From Myxococcota bacterium (GTDB lineage: Bacteria > Myxococcota > XYA12-FULL-58-9 > JALHOP01), in contig JALHOP010000008.1 in the NCBI GenBank assembly GCA_022842935.1, positions 1-64,000 on the forward strand: a stretch of 64,000 nucleotides of DNA, in the 5' to 3' direction. The notes beneath the pieces are model-generated. The model did no database searches, had not been told where the DNA came from, and saw nothing but the letters and a program-made list of their open reading frames with translations. A program made the translations under genes and the position numbers. This document shows, in pieces, positions 717 to 6,854 of the stretch. The first letter of the stretch is position 1. Each line of letters opens with the position of its first letter.

Positions 717-1169
717 ATGTCAGACGGAAGAACCCATCGAGCTATCGGCACCCTCGTCGGAGGGGGCTTCGCCCTCGCCAAGGCCCAGCAGCAGCGCCCC
801 GAGCATCTCCTCCTGGAGGTCCTTGGCGGGCTGATCGCCGGCAACCTGGGGGCCCGTCTGCCCGACGTGTTCGATCCGCCGATGCACCCGGGGCACCGGA
901 GCGTCGCGCACGGGATCGCGCCTGTCGCGGCTGTGGGCCGCGCGGCCGTTCGCGGGCTCGATGGTGCTCAAGTCCGGCTTCGCGCTGAAGCCGATCGTCG
1001 TACAGCGCTTCGCGCGTCCGCCACCACGCCCCTGCAGCGTCTCTGGCAGGCGGTCCTCGAGATCCTCTGCCGGCTTGGTGCCGGCGCGCTGGCCGGGCTC
1101 CTCGGCGGTTACGGCTCGCACGTCGCGCTCGATGCGCTCACCCCCGCCGGCCTACCTCTTCTCGCGTGA
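717..1169 (+). CDS. YdjM-like (DUF457) membrane metal-dependent hydrolase
   Basis: The 150-residue product resembles the YdjM/DUF457 family of inner-membrane 'metal-dependent hydrolases'. It has an early histidine (THRAIGT, residues 6-12), the HPGHRSVAHG cluster and a late GYGSHVALDALTPAG motif, matching the family's HR..T/SH and G.lSH..lD..TP.G signatures, with hydrophobic stretches near residues 11-45 and 112-132. It is shorter than typical members. Start choice is supported by GGAGGA six bases upstream. It is the first gene of the island and lies 8 bp before the regulator gene. E. coli YdjM is LexA-controlled, but no LexA box was seen here. Its role in the island is unknown. Confidence 0.65.
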   Translation: MSDGRTHRAIGTLVGGGFALAKAQQQRPEHLLLEVLGGLIAGNLGARLPDVFDPPMHPGHRSVAHGIAPVAAVGRAAVRGLDGAQVRLRAEADRRTALRASATTPLQRLWQAVLEILCRLGAGALAGLLGGYGSHVALDALTPAGLPLLA

Positions 1170-1177
1170 GGCCATCG

Positions 1178-2425
1178 ATGACTGTCACCCAGGAAGAACT
1201 CGGACGCCGAATTCGCGCCGCACGTGAAGCGTGCCGCATGACCCAAGACGACGCCGCGAAGCACATCGGCGTCTCCCGACCGACCTTTGTCCAGATCGAG
1301 GCGGGCAAGCGCTCGGTCTCCAGCCTTGAGCTCGACAAGCTCGCGTACCTGTTCGGCCGCGACATCCGCGAGTTCGTGGCAAACGAGTTCCAGCAGGAAG
1401 ACTCGCTCACCGCACTGTTCCGCGCGCAGGCCTCCGTCGTTGGCGAGCCCGAGGTTCTCGACAAGCTTCGCGAGTGCATGGCGCTCGGGCGCGAGCTGAC
1501 GAACCTCGAGCGGCTCGTCGGCATCGACCGCGATCTGTCGGCGGTCGCCTCGTACCCGTTCCCGGTGCCGAAGGCGCGCTGGGAGGCGGTGCAGCAGGGC
1601 CAACGCCTCGCTGAGGAGGAACGTCGTCGTCTAGGCTTGGGCTTCGCGCCGCTCCCCGACATGACCGAGCTACTCGAGTCGCAGGGCGTCCGCACGGCGA
1701 TGGTCGAGCTGCCGAACGACGTCTCGGGCCTGACGCTCAGCGACCGGAAGGTGGGCCTCTTCGTCGTCGCGAACGACGTGCATCACTACCTGCGTCGCCG
1801 CTTCTCGTTTGCACACGAGTACGCCCACGTCGTCGCCGATCGTGATCGCTCCGGGCTCATCAGCCAGACCTCGGCGCGCGACGATCTCATCGAGGTTCGC
1901 GCCAACGCGTTCGCCGCGAACTTCCTCATGCCGGAGGACGGCGTCCGTCAGTTCGTCAGTGGCCTTGGCAAGGGCAAGCCGAGCCGCGTCTTCGCTGAAG
2001 TGTTCGACGAGGAAGCGGCGCTCAACGTCGAAGGGCGCTCGGAGCCAGGCACCCAGACGATCCAGCTCTACGACGTCGTGCTGCTCGCGCACCATTTCGG
2101 CGTGAGCCGGATCTCCGCGCTGTACCGGCTGCGCAACCTGCGCCTGCTCTCCGAGGCCGAGTTCAACCACCTCAAGGCGCTCGATGACGAGGGCAAGGGT
2201 AAGCCACTCGCGATGGCGCTCGGTCTCTCCGAGCCCGATCACGCGGAGATGCGCAGTGAGTTCAAGCACCGCTTCCTCGGGCTGGCGCTCGAGGCCTACC
2301 GTCGCGACGAGATCTCACGCGGCAAGCTCCGCGAGCTCGTGGCGATGGTCGGCCTTAGCGTCGACGACCTGGACCAACTCCTCGATGACGCCGGTCTCGA
2401 CGGCGAGGACGACCCCGCGCCGTGA
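1178..2425 (+). CDS. XRE-family HTH regulator with ImmA/IrrE metalloprotease domain
   Basis: The N-terminal XRE helix-turn-helix (about residues 5-60, containing MTQDDAAKHIGVSRPTFVQI) is followed by a zinc-peptidase domain with HEYAH at residues 213-217 and a downstream EVRANAFAANFLMP helix carrying the third ligand, typical of ImmA/IrrE. Such proteins bind DNA and cleave a repressor or antitoxin partner in response to stress or phage signals. ATG 1178 is chosen; an in-frame GTG at 1166 would overlap the previous stop. The stop overlaps the PIN gene's GTG start, so the two are translationally coupled, suggesting a toxin-antitoxin-like or sensor unit attached to the ubiquitin-like cassette. 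Confidence 0.85.
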   Translation: MTVTQEELGRRIRAAREACRMTQDDAAKHIGVSRPTFVQIEAGKRSVSSLELDKLAYLFGRDIREFVANEFQQEDSLTALFRAQASVVGEPEVLDKLRECMALGRELTNLERLVGIDRDLSAVASYPFPVPKARWEAVQQGQRLAEEERRRLGLGFAPLPDMTELLESQGVRTAMVELPNDVSGLTLSDRKVGLFVVANDVHHYLRRRFSFAHEYAHVVADRDRSGLISQTSARDDLIEVRANAFAANFLMPEDGVRQFVSGLGKGKPSRVFAEVFDEEAALNVEGRSEPGTQTIQLYDVVLLAHHFGVSRISALYRLRNLRLLSEAEFNHLKALDDEGKGKPLAMALGLSEPDHAEMRSEFKHRFLGLALEAYRRDEISRGKLRELVAMVGLSVDDLDQLLDDAGLDGEDDPAP

Positions 2426-2931
2426 GCACACCGATCCTCCGCATCGTCGTGACCGACGCCAACGTGCTCATCAACCTGATGCACGTGTCGCGACTTGGCC
2501 TGCTGGCCAAGATCCCCAACCACGAGTTCGTGGTGCCGGAGCACGTGCGCGAGGAGATCACGATCGCCGAGCAGCGGACGACGCTCGACGCCGCGGTCAC
2601 CGCGGGCTGGCTGAAGATCGAGGTCATCGATGACATCGGCGCCATCACGGTCTTCACGGAGCTCATCGCTCACATCGGTCGTGGCGAAGCGGCGTGCATC
2701 GCGATCGCCGCGCAGAAGGGCTGGCTCATCGCCTCCGACGAGAAGAAGCGGTTCCTCCGCGAGGCCACAGCGCGCGTTGGTGTCGGCCACGTCCTCACCA
2801 CCGTCGACGTGTTCGTCCTCGCGATCAAGGCGGGGCTCCTCACCATCGAGGAAGCCGACGCGGACAAGATCACGCTCGAAGGTAGGCGGTTCAAGGTGTC
2901 GTTCGGCTCGTATCGGGAACTCGTGAAGTAG
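2422..2931 (+). CDS. PIN-domain nuclease-like protein
   Basis: The 169-residue protein has the PIN fold pattern: VVTDANVLINL (D12), a central EAACIAIA helix (E89) and WLIASDEK (D106), giving the usual acidic triad for Mg-dependent RNase activity. GTG start; it overlaps the end of the HTH/ImmA-IrrE gene by 4 bp and is followed 28 bp later by the ubiquitin-like gene. PIN proteins are usually VapC-type RNase toxins. The upstream protein could be the antitoxin or regulator, though it is far larger than a VapB. Whether this arm acts as the effector of the ubiquitin-like system is inference. Confidence 0.8.
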   Translation: MSTPILRIVVTDANVLINLMHVSRLGLLAKIPNHEFVVPEHVREEITIAEQRTTLDAAVTAGWLKIEVIDDIGAITVFTELIAHIGRGEAACIAIAAQKGWLIASDEKKRFLREATARVGVGHVLTTVDVFVLAIKAGLLTIEEADADKITLEGRRFKVSFGSYRELVK

Positions 2932-2959: not shown

Positions 2960-3280
2960 ATGTCCACGGAAATGGAAGCTGAAGTCGACGAGATCGAGAT
3001 CGAGGTTCACACCCAGAAGGTCAGCGGGAAGGAGAAGCCGCCCAAGGCGAAGAAGTACATCATCCGCGTCGACAAGACGAAGTTCACCGTCGAGGTCTCG
3101 TCGATGACTGGGCGCGAGATCCTCTCCCTCGCCGGCAAGACGCCGGTCGAGCAGTACAAGCTGACCCAGAAGATGCATGGCGGCGCGGCGAAGACGATCA
3201 ACCTCGACGACCCGGTCGACTTCACGGAGCCCGGCGTTGAGCGCTTCATGACGCTGAAGCGTGACCAGACCGAGGGCTGA
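2960..3280 (+). CDS. Ubiquitin-like protein, multiubiquitin (Bub-type) family
   Basis: The 106-residue product matches the bacterial multiubiquitin family: a single beta-grasp unit reading KYIIRVDKTKFTVEVSSMTG, then GREILSLAGKTPVEQYKL, ending in RFMTLKRDQTEG with a C-terminal glycine. Only one beta-grasp copy is present, preceded by about 28 acidic/lysine-rich residues. It would be adenylated by the E1 encoded two genes downstream. Shine-Dalgarno-like GGAGAAGGAG precedes ATG 2960. It sits directly before the E2-like gene with one base between them, so co-expression is expected. The target of conjugation is unknown. Confidence 0.9.
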   Translation: MSTEMEAEVDEIEIEVHTQKVSGKEKPPKAKKYIIRVDKTKFTVEVSSMTGREILSLAGKTPVEQYKLTQKMHGGAAKTINLDDPVDFTEPGVERFMTLKRDQTEG

Positions 3281-3281
3281 C

Positions 3282-3683
3282 ATGCGCCGGCAGTTCGAGC
3301 TCCCTTCGTTCGACACGCAGTACCTGGAGACGACCGGCCTCGAGTGGGAGACCATCGTCGAGGGCGCGGGGCGGTGGCTGCTTCTCCACGGTCGTCCCCT
3401 ACCCAACGGGTACAACGTCGAGCGCGCCATCGTCGCGCTGCAGATCCCGCCCGGGTATCCCGACGCGCAGATCGACATGGTGTACTTCTTCCCCGCACTC
3501 GCGAGGAAGGACAATCAGGCCATCGGTGCGACCCAAAGCGCGCAGGCTCTCGACGGAAAGTCGTTCCAGCGTTGGTCTCGACACCGCACCGCTGCTGCCC
3601 CGTGGCGGCCGGGCGAGGACGACATCTCGAGCCATCTCGTGCTCGTCGACGACTGGCTCGAACGCGAGTTCAAGATCCGATGA
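3282..3683 (+). CDS. E2-like protein, prokaryotic E2 family E, lacking cysteine
   Basis: The 133-residue protein has the Prok-E2_E pattern: LPNGYNVERAIVALQIPPGYPDAQIDMVYF, then FQRWSRHR, WRPGEDDISSHL and VDDWLEREF. The fold is the UBC/E2 core expected to carry the ubiquitin-like protein from E1. Reading the whole sequence I find no cysteine, so a canonical thioester cannot form on it. Serines and histidine around residues 82-88 (SFQRWSRH) sit near where an E2 active site would lie. It begins one base after the ubiquitin-like stop and overlaps the JAB-E1 gene by 4 bp (ATGA). Confidence 0.85.
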   Translation: MRRQFELPSFDTQYLETTGLEWETIVEGAGRWLLLHGRPLPNGYNVERAIVALQIPPGYPDAQIDMVYFFPALARKDNQAIGATQSAQALDGKSFQRWSRHRTAAAPWRPGEDDISSHLVLVDDWLEREFKIR

Positions 3684-5083
3684 AGAACCGTCCAGCTCAT
3701 CTCCGGCTCGCGGGCGTTCACGCCGAGGAACTTCATCGTCACCTGTTTCCCGGTGACGGCAAGGAAGCCGTGGCGTTCGCGCTCTGCGGTCGTCACCACG
3801 CCACCGAACACGACGTCCTACTCGTGCAGGAAGTGCTTCCGGTCCCCTACGCAGACTGTCCGGTCCGCAAGGCCGACCAAATCACCTGGCGCACGGAGGC
3901 CATCGAACCGCTCCTGCTTCGGGCGTCTCGGGCCACGCCGAAGCTTGGGGTCGTGAAGTTCCACAGCCACCCCACGGGTTACGAAGACTTCTCGCGCACC
4001 GACGACATCTCGGACCGGGACCTCTTCCCCTCGATCTACGGGTGGGTCGACGACGACGGACCTCACGCCAGCGTCGTCATGCTCCCAGACCGCCGCATGT
4101 TCGGTCGCAGCATCGACAGTGAGAATCGCTTCCATCGGCTTCAGCAGATCCTCGTCGCTGACCACGACATCGGCCTCTTTGGGACGATCGCTTCGGCAGC
4201 GCTGCCGGCGCACGCGGAGCGCCACGCGCAGGTCTTTGGCGACAGTACGACCAGCCGCCTTCGGCAGCTCGCCATCGGGGTGGTCGGATGCTCTGGCACG
4301 GGCAGCTTCGTCATCGAGATGCTGGCCCGCCTCGGCGTGAGAAAGCTGGTGTTGGTTGACCCTGACCGAGTCGAGTACAGGAACCTCAACCGGATCGTCG
4401 GCACGACCGCCGCTGACGCGGCGACGAGCAGGAGCAAGGTCGAGGCAATTGGCGAGCACGTGGCCCGCCTCGGCCTCGACACCCGCGTCGAGATCGTGCC
4501 GCGCGAGTTGGCTTCCGTAGAGGCCGTTCGCGCGCTGGCAGGTTGCGACGTGCTCTTCGGCTGCATGGACAGCCACGACGGTCGCCGCACCCTGAACCGG
4601 CTCGCGTCCTTCTACGTGCTGCCGTACTTCGACTGCGGCGTCGGCTTGGCTGCCGACGGCACCGGCAACATCGACGACGTCACAGCGGCGGCGCACTACG
4701 TTCAGCCAGGGCGATCGACTTTGCTCGCGCGCAGAGTGATCTCGCAGAAGCGGGCCGACGCCGAAGCGATGGCCCGCCGCGATCCTGAGCAGTACCGAGC
4801 GCTTCACGCGGAGAAATACATCGAGGGAGCAGAGATCGACAGCCCCGCCGTTATCAGCGTCAACGCGCTCGCAGCCTCTCTGGTAGTGAACGAGTTCCTT
4901 GCGCGACTACACCCGTTCCGCCAGACGGCAAACGCGGACTACGCGTCCGTCCGTCTGAAGTACGACGCGATGCTGCTCGACGTGGAGCAAGAGACGGATG
5001 CCACCCCCCTTCGCAGGGCGCTCGGGAGGGGCGACGTCCAACCGCTGCTCGACTTGCCCGAGCTGTCGTCGGTGGGAGCGTAG
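3680..5083 (+). CDS. JAB/JAMM isopeptidase fused to ThiF-type E1 activating enzyme
   Basis: The 467-residue fusion begins with a JAMM metalloprotease: E29, then HSHPTG (H95, H97), S105 and D108 in exact HxHx7Sx2D spacing, so the zinc site looks intact. From about residue 195 it is a ThiF/E1 adenylation domain: VVGCSGTGSFV nucleotide loop, LVLVDPDRVEYRNLNR, and CMDSHDGR (C295, D297). The HYVQPGRSTLL segment, where ThiF/MoeB-type enzymes usually carry the acceptor cysteine, has S346/T347 instead and no cysteine follows. Predicted roles are activation of the ubiquitin-like protein and its removal or processing. It overlaps the E2 gene by 4 bp. Confidence 0.9.
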   Translation: MKNRPAHLRLAGVHAEELHRHLFPGDGKEAVAFALCGRHHATEHDVLLVQEVLPVPYADCPVRKADQITWRTEAIEPLLLRASRATPKLGVVKFHSHPTGYEDFSRTDDISDRDLFPSIYGWVDDDGPHASVVMLPDRRMFGRSIDSENRFHRLQQILVADHDIGLFGTIASAALPAHAERHAQVFGDSTTSRLRQLAIGVVGCSGTGSFVIEMLARLGVRKLVLVDPDRVEYRNLNRIVGTTAADAATSRSKVEAIGEHVARLGLDTRVEIVPRELASVEAVRALAGCDVLFGCMDSHDGRRTLNRLASFYVLPYFDCGVGLAADGTGNIDDVTAAAHYVQPGRSTLLARRVISQKRADAEAMARRDPEQYRALHAEKYIEGAEIDSPAVISVNALAASLVVNEFLARLHPFRQTANADYASVRLKYDAMLLDVEQETDATPLRRALGRGDVQPLLDLPELSSVGA

Positions 5084-5087
5084 AGAA

Positions 5088-5537
5088 ATGCGTTGGCTGC
5101 GTCGGCTCTGGGCTCGGTTCTCCGAGTGGATTCGCTCCCTGCGCTTGCCGGGAGGAGTGAGCAACGACGACTCGGCTTCCGCGCCCGCGCCGCAGCTACC
5201 ACCGGCGGCACCACCACCCCAGTATCGCGTCGTCCACCTTACCGACGATCCCGACGATCTGCTGCCGGAGACTCTCTACGCCATCGGGGAGAACGGCCAC
5301 CTCTGGCACGTCTCGCTCGTGTGCCCCTGCGGCTGCGGCGCAACGATCGCGCTCAACGTGCTCCCCGACGACTCGCCGCGCTGGCGGCTGTACGAGAGCG
5401 CCGACGGTCCGACGCTGTCTCCGTCGGTCTGGAGAACTACGGGCTGCCGGAGTCACTTCATCCTTCGAAGGGGCCACGTCATTTGGTGCCATGGTCGACG
5501 ACCGGACGACGTGAGCGAGACCGAGTACAGCGCATAG
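5088..5537 (+). CDS. DUF6527 (BubE-type) protein of the ubiquitin-like cassette
   Basis: The 149-residue product has the DUF6527 signature: LVCPCGCGATIALNV, WRLYESADGPTLSPSVW, then CRSHFILRRGHVIWC. This family accompanies multiubiquitin/E2/E1 cassettes; recent work on Bub operons, as I recall, treats it as a peptidase acting on the ubiquitin-like protein. The N terminus (MRWLRRLWARFSEWIRSLR) is a basic amphipathic helix followed by a proline/alanine linker to about residue 47, which could bind membrane or a partner. It starts 4 bases after the E1 stop, completing the cassette. The CPCGCG cluster and conserved Ser/His are the obvious candidates for function. Confidence 0.85.
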   Translation: MRWLRRLWARFSEWIRSLRLPGGVSNDDSASAPAPQLPPAAPPPQYRVVHLTDDPDDLLPETLYAIGENGHLWHVSLVCPCGCGATIALNVLPDDSPRWRLYESADGPTLSPSVWRTTGCRSHFILRRGHVIWCHGRRPDDVSETEYSA

Positions 5538-5588
5538 GACCGAACCGCACCAACTCCAGCCCTGAGCCCCGCCGCGTAGGATGCTCAA

Positions 5589-6854
5589 ATGGCCATCACC
5601 CGCGAGACCCTCTACGAGGAGGTCTGGGCCGAGCCGATGACGAAGGTCGCGGCTCGGTACGCCGTCTCGTCGAGCTTCCTCGCGCGGGTCTGCGAGCGGC
5701 TGAACGTCCCGCGGCCGTCTCGCGGCTACTGGGCGCAACTCGATGTCGGGAAGGCCAGCGCGAAGCCCGCGCTGCCGGAGGCGCGCCCGGGCGACGAGCT
5801 GGAGTGGTCGCGCGAGGGTGAGCCGCGCCGCGTCCCCCGCGCACTGCCGCAGCCGCCTTCCGAGAACGAGCCCCCGCCGCGGCGCCGTCGACGCGAGCGG
5901 CCGTCGCGACACGAACTGATCGTCGGCGCACGCGAGCACTTCGAGGGCGCAAAGGAGTCCGACAGCGGGTACCTGCGGCCGCTCAAGAAGCGGCTCGTCG
6001 ACGCGTTCGTGACGAAGGCGACGCTGGACCACGCGCTGGACGTAGCAAACGCACTGTTCTTGGCGCTCGAGGATCGCGGGCACCGGGTCACCTTTGCGCC
6101 CTTGGACCAGCACCTGCGCCGGCCCGAGGTCGACGAGCGCACCGAGGGAGGAGGCGAGCGGTACAGCTACGGACGCTGGGGCCCGGATCGCCCGACGGTC
6201 GTCTACGTCGGCTCCGTCGCAATCGGCCTGACGATGTTCGAGCTCAGCGAAGAGGTGGAGGTCCGATACGTGGACGGCAAGTACGTTCGCGTCGCCGACG
6301 TCCCGCAGCCAGCCACAAGGCGGCGGCGCTGGGCACCGCCAGAGCACGTCTGGACGCACAAGCGTGACATGCCGAGCGGGCGCCTGTGCCTCCGGGCTTC
6401 ATCCCCGTACGCGCGCGCCAAGTGGGAGAAGCAGTGGCGAGAAGGCAGGGGCTCGGGGGGCTCGGACCTTTCGTCGAAGGTGCCTCAGATCGTCCGCGAG
6501 CTGGAGACCGAGGCTGCAACCATCGCCGCGCTCGTTGCCGAGGGAGAACGGCAAGCCGAGATCGAGCGGCAGAAGTGGGAGGCGCAGCAGGCAAAGTGGC
6601 GTGCAGAGGAAGCGGAGCGTCGGCGCATCCAGAACACGAAGGAGAGCAGGGAGGAGCTCTTCGCCATCATCGAGGCGTGGGGCGTGGCGAAGCAGATCGA
6701 GGGCTTCTTCGAGGACGCACAGCGCCGCGCGGCCGAGCTCGACGAGGACGCAAGGGACGCGATCCGGGACCGGCTCAAGCTAGCACGCGCGCTCCTGGGC
6801 GATGTCGACGCTCTCCGGCGGTTCCGCGCCTGGCGGTCACCCGAAGAGCGGTAG
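5589..6854 (+). CDS. Hypothetical protein with DNA-binding-like N terminus
   Basis: The first 55 residues (ITRETLYEEVWAEPMTKVAA ... VPRPSRGYWAQLDVGKA) match a widespread, poorly named family seen in genomic islands and defence loci, whose N terminus resembles a helix-turn-helix. A proline/arginine linker (about 60-110) follows, then a mixed domain (about 115-290) and a long charged coiled-coil (about 300-410). There are no catalytic motifs I can name. It starts 51 bp after the DUF6527 stop on the same strand, so it may be the last gene of the operon. A role as regulator or scaffold for the island is a guess. Confidence 0.6.
   Translation: MAITRETLYEEVWAEPMTKVAARYAVSSSFLARVCERLNVPRPSRGYWAQLDVGKASAKPALPEARPGDELEWSREGEPRRVPRALPQPPSENEPPPRRRRRERPSRHELIVGAREHFEGAKESDSGYLRPLKKRLVDAFVTKATLDHALDVANALFLALEDRGHRVTFAPLDQHLRRPEVDERTEGGGERYSYGRWGPDRPTVVYVGSVAIGLTMFELSEEVEVRYVDGKYVRVADVPQPATRRRRWAPPEHVWTHKRDMPSGRLCLRASSPYARAKWEKQWREGRGSGGSDLSSKVPQIVRELETEAATIAALVAEGERQAEIERQKWEAQQAKWRAEEAERRRIQNTKESREELFAIIEAWGVAKQIEGFFEDAQRRAAELDEDARDAIRDRLKLARALLGDVDALRRFRAWRSPEER

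Follow-up and report, generated by a model that had tools for sequence, protein, structure and literature searches.

The bacterial Bil and CBASS Cap2 systems share the logic of a ubiquitin-like protein (Ubl), E1, E2 and JAB with the operon described here, and use cysteine-based E2s, unlike the E2 of this operon. The closest described system is Bub, for which mechanistic work by Ye and colleagues in 2026 has reportedly found oxyester instead of thioester intermediates and is also said to describe a family of Ser-His proteases. The operon and its cysteine-less E2-like protein have been known since 2006; recognition of Bub as a conjugation pathway came later. As first set out, operon type 6e consists of a Ubl protein, a cysteine-less E2-like domain that was judged inactive, an N-terminal JAB domain fused to an E1 and a cysteine-rich protein resembling metal-binding proteins, and most examples have two to three Ubl repeats, with one solo case tabulated (Iyer et al. 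2006, PMC1779556). Fusions of the Ubl to the E2 in some species, and a conserved cysteine in the E2 of the type 6b operon, were noted in the same study. The reference for Bub is the Citrobacter system (PDB 9EAE, 9EAV and 9EA4; Gong et al. 2025; Ye et al. 2026), in which the Ubl and E2 form one 362-aa protein and CapK/CapS-like genes are the regulators.

Identity and fold of the E2-like protein

The sequence analysed here (the window) is a 64,000-nucleotide stretch from a Myxococcota bacterium. It contains an operon with all of the type 6e components, namely a Ubl, a cysteine-less E2-like protein, a JAB-E1 fusion and a cysteine-rich fourth protein of the DUF6527 type (Table 1). The Citrobacter system has the same partners, and they are kept in the relatives of the window operon, which occupies bases 2960–5537. 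Here the Ubl is a separate protein with a single domain, in contrast to the repeats of most type 6e examples and to the Citrobacter fusion.

Table 1. Positions of the Bub-type genes and the upstream pair in the window
Feature	Position	Strand	Details
HTH and ImmA/IrrE-type (M78) metallopeptidase	1166–2425	+	PF06114 8.4e-14; HTH_31 2.1e-10; PADLOC RmrA 2.3e-26, capP 8.4e-16
PIN-like protein paired with regulator	2422–2931	+	weak PIN_6 0.03; PADLOC PDC-S70 6.8e-12
Ubiquitin-like protein (BubA-like), 106 aa, one Ubl domain, ends in Gly106	2960–3280	+	PF14452 Multi_ubiq 5.6e-17
E2-like protein (BubB-like), 133 aa, no Cys	3282–3683	+	PF14462 Prok-E2_E 8.2e-41; BubB 9EAE 7e-27, Z 21.8
SFQRWSRH, residues 94–101 of the E2-like protein	3561–3584	+	Ser99 codon 3576–3578; His101 codon 3582–3584
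JAB protease domain fused to E1-like adenylating domain (BubCD-like)	3680–5083	+	ThiF 3.1e-30; Prok-JAB 2.3e-6; Citrobacter BubCD 9EA4 3.2e-67
DUF6527 protein, possible Ubl protease	5088–5537	+	PF20137 1.6e-22; conserved C79, C81, C120, S122, H123

The E2-like protein belongs to the Prok-E2_E family, matching the whole of the PF14462 profile (model positions 1–123 of 123) with 139.1 bits against a curated cut-off of 25. In the PDB, sequence comparison gave significant matches solely to Citrobacter BubB (9EAE and 9EAV, 7e-27), with which the protein shares 42 % identity and an identical QRWSRHR motif, and the identity to a BubB copy on a Citrobacter plasmid was also 42 %. Judged by the aligned ranges, Ser99 of the window protein corresponds to about residue 333 of Citrobacter BubB. 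An AlphaFold2 model computed from 19 homologues (pLDDT 92.7) superimposed on chain C of 9EAE with a Z of 21.8 and 1.1 Å over 127 residues, and when Foldseek was used alone BubB was the sole confident match. Classical E2s, which made up most of the matches after BubB, and UEV proteins ranked below it, with Z about 8–9 (maximum 9.0) and 3.2–3.8 Å over 105–114 residues, and CBASS Cap2 (7TQD) was matched at Z 7.8. The UBC fold is shared with the eukaryotic E2 and UEV proteins at an identity of only 7–18 %, and is well supported in the model via BubB, the nearest known protein. By sequence, the window E2 is an orthologue of BubB in a Bub-type operon, in agreement with the link to Bub that the initial annotation had drawn.

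Absence of cysteine and conservation of Ser99 and His101

Bases 3282–3683 translate into 133 residues followed by a stop, and cysteine is not among them, as the initial annotation had stated, and an alternative 140-aa open reading frame starting at a GTG at base 3261 also lacks cysteine. Cysteine accounts for 1.15 % of residues in the long open reading frames of the window, and a random 133-mer would be without it with P ~0.21. Its absence alone is weak evidence because it is expected by composition in ~21 % of cases, about one in five, and it was not used as an argument. The conservation pattern across homologues, which goes beyond chance, provides stronger evidence.

The missing cysteine might also be an artefact of a frameshift or a wrong gene call, but nothing was found to support this. 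The frame is free of internal stops across the full-length PF14462 match, and the gene junctions are tight at both ends, as the Ubl stop lies at 3278–3280 and the E2 starts with the ATG at 3282, while the E2 stop shares four bases with the start of the JAB-E1 gene (ATG at 3680). The independent homologues also have no conserved cysteine. An artefact is thus extremely improbable and for practical purposes refuted, and the frameshift hiding a cysteine-containing segment of which the initial annotation had warned is not evident.

An alignment of 41 E2 homologues, reaching down to 23 % identity, had no conserved cysteine column. In no column was cysteine present in more than three of the 41, and the stray cysteines found in 18 sequences were at unrelated, non-aligned places. 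Ser99 and His101 were present in all 41, as were Asp65, Pro71 and Trp108, and the other serine positions of the E2 were not conserved. Both Ser99 and His101 lie in the motif SFQRWSRH, which had been placed at about residues 82–88 and is in fact found at residues 94–101. In the AlphaFold2 model, Ser99 directly follows a strand that ends at residue 98 and precedes the conserved Trp108-x-Pro and a helix at residues 115–128. In classical E2s a W-x-P and a helix also come after the catalytic cysteine, with nearly the same spacing, and in eukaryotic E2s this cysteine is found in the region that corresponds to Ser99. The suggestion that a serine and a histidine lie near a likely active site therefore held, although not at the residue numbers first given. 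The alignment and the model together suggest that Ser99 takes the place of the classical catalytic cysteine, with His101 as its likely helper. A canonical E2 thioester, which had been called impossible for this protein, is impossible for the 133-aa product, as there is no cysteine in the protein and none is conserved in the family.

Partner proteins

The window Ubl already terminates in the glycine that is invariant in its relatives. In 18 of the 38 loci that have both domains, the Ubl and E2 are found in one frame, with a few residues between the conserved glycine of the Ubl and the E2 (L007, L010–L014, L018, L019, L021, L025, L026, L034, L042, L044, L046, L048, L050 and L051). In three further loci they share a frame without a clear junction, and the separate Ubls in a few loci have short tails beyond the conserved glycine. 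Because the glycine is internal in the fused and tailed forms, they must be cut, and a protease is needed to free the Ubl.

The residues for metal binding and catalysis (E29, H95, H97, S105 and D108) are retained in the JAB domain of the fusion protein, as are the nucleotide-binding residues in the E1 domain. In the E1 crossover loop there is no cysteine and no serine or threonine that is conserved across the Bub loci. Residue 347 of the E1, which is serine or threonine in most Bub E1s, was considered as a hydroxyl nucleophile and dropped, as it is asparagine in L034 and glycine in L049; in a second clade this column is the first cysteine of a CxxC motif, which also counts against it. Two groups of Bub E1s can be distinguished. 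One has CxxC-type pairs that are probably zinc-binding (L003–L006, L040, L041 and L044–L047), and the other, which includes the window E1, has none. The E2 with Ser99 and His101 is common to both groups. Invariant residues of the DUF6527 protein are C79, C81, C120 and the neighbouring pair S122-H123, and C83 is nearly invariant.

Proposed mechanism and alternatives

By analogy with the characterised Bub system, the window protein is probably a catalytically active Bub E2 in which the Ubl is held by an oxyester bond to Ser99. As in the characterised orthologue, the JAB-E1 protein would adenylate the C-terminal Gly106 of the Ubl, which would then pass to Ser99. His101 may activate Ser99 or the incoming nucleophile, and the Ubl would go from Ser99 to the target. 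Processing of Ubl precursors, where needed, and removal of the Ubl may fall to the JAB domain, the DUF6527 protein or both. The terminal glycine of the Ubl is co-conserved with an E1 and a JAB domain that have intact motifs, which would be expected if the pathway works. As the E1 crossover loop lacks a cysteine or a conserved serine or threonine, the Ubl could conceivably move from the E1 adenylate directly onto Ser99 without being bound covalently to the E1, leaving the E2 as the single ester carrier, though in our view this is unlikely.

Exchange of the two roles, with His101 as the nucleophile and Ser99 in support, would fit the conservation equally well in that His101 is as invariant as Ser99. 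We know of no E2 that works via a histidine nucleophile, and the oxyester chemistry reported for Bub points to the serine, making this highly unlikely. The E2 might instead be catalytically dead, in the manner of UEV or RWD domains, and only dock the Ubl or a target on the E1 while the E1 or another factor carries out the transfer, as Iyer et al. (2006, PMC1779556) understood it. Consistent with this, the structural matches include UEV domains (Tsg101), whose Z of about 8 is no better and no worse than that of active E2s, and the invariant Ser99 and His101 could serve binding instead. A scaffold need not keep these residues, which lie in the active-site region and are among the few that are invariant across very divergent members, and their conservation argues against an inactive E2. 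As there is also no other candidate E2 protein in the operon, we consider a dead scaffold improbable and favour the active E2 with an oxyester on Ser99.

Upstream genes and regulation

Directly upstream of the Bub-type genes, the HTH-M78 gene overlaps the gene for the PIN-like protein (1166–2931), a pair that differs from the CapK/CapS-like genes of Citrobacter. HTH and ImmA/IrrE genes also flank the Bub operons of L041, L045 and L051, ImmA/IrrE genes are found at L040 and L048, and a pair similar to that in the window, an XRE gene with one for a small protein, adjoins the operons in L022 and L027. The HTH-M78 protein is a probable regulator of the cluster, and the pair probably controls expression under stress. 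CapW, or CapH with CapP, was found at 219 of 544 Bub operons, with DNA damage-dependent control of expression, and the same study states that protection against phage by Bub has not been demonstrated (PMC13373217).

Distribution of the operon

The four parts were found in the same order in 17 of 18 loci, which were from Acidobacteria, Proteobacteria, Bacteroidetes, Planctomycetes, Cyanobacteria and a Prosthecobacter. In the remaining locus (L022, bases 4799–5593), DUF6527 follows the JAB domain immediately, with no E1 domain between them, in a Ubl-E2 locus that is otherwise normal; either an in-frame deletion that arose naturally or a misassembly could account for this. The E2 was present in 98 plasmid records. 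No match was found in phage records, and among viral contigs one locus (L025) contained the E2. Within the phylum of the window the E2 was found in five of 195 genomes, including that of the window, and this sporadic occurrence fits a mobile accessory system.

In one Bub operon, on a Celeribacter plasmid (L040, bases 4469–5740), an annotated IS256-family transposase separates the E2 gene from the E1 gene. Five cyanobacterial loci (L035–L039, about 1300–1870 in each) include an E2-like gene adjoining a JAB-E1 gene, and its product has a partial PF14462 match with a conserved cysteine in roughly the same loop. These proteins are perhaps cysteine-using relatives of BubB. They were rejected as proof of a cysteine-to-serine exchange at position 99, as the profile alignment breaks up in that loop.

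The Bub family was already recognised, and the window E2 contributes one further, fairly divergent member. The alignment supplies S99, H101, D65 and W108 as candidate residues for mutation. E2 enzymes are the textbook case of thioester chemistry, and a widespread, mobile bacterial family in which a Ser/His pair appears to replace the cysteine suggests that the E2 fold can run on oxygen chemistry.
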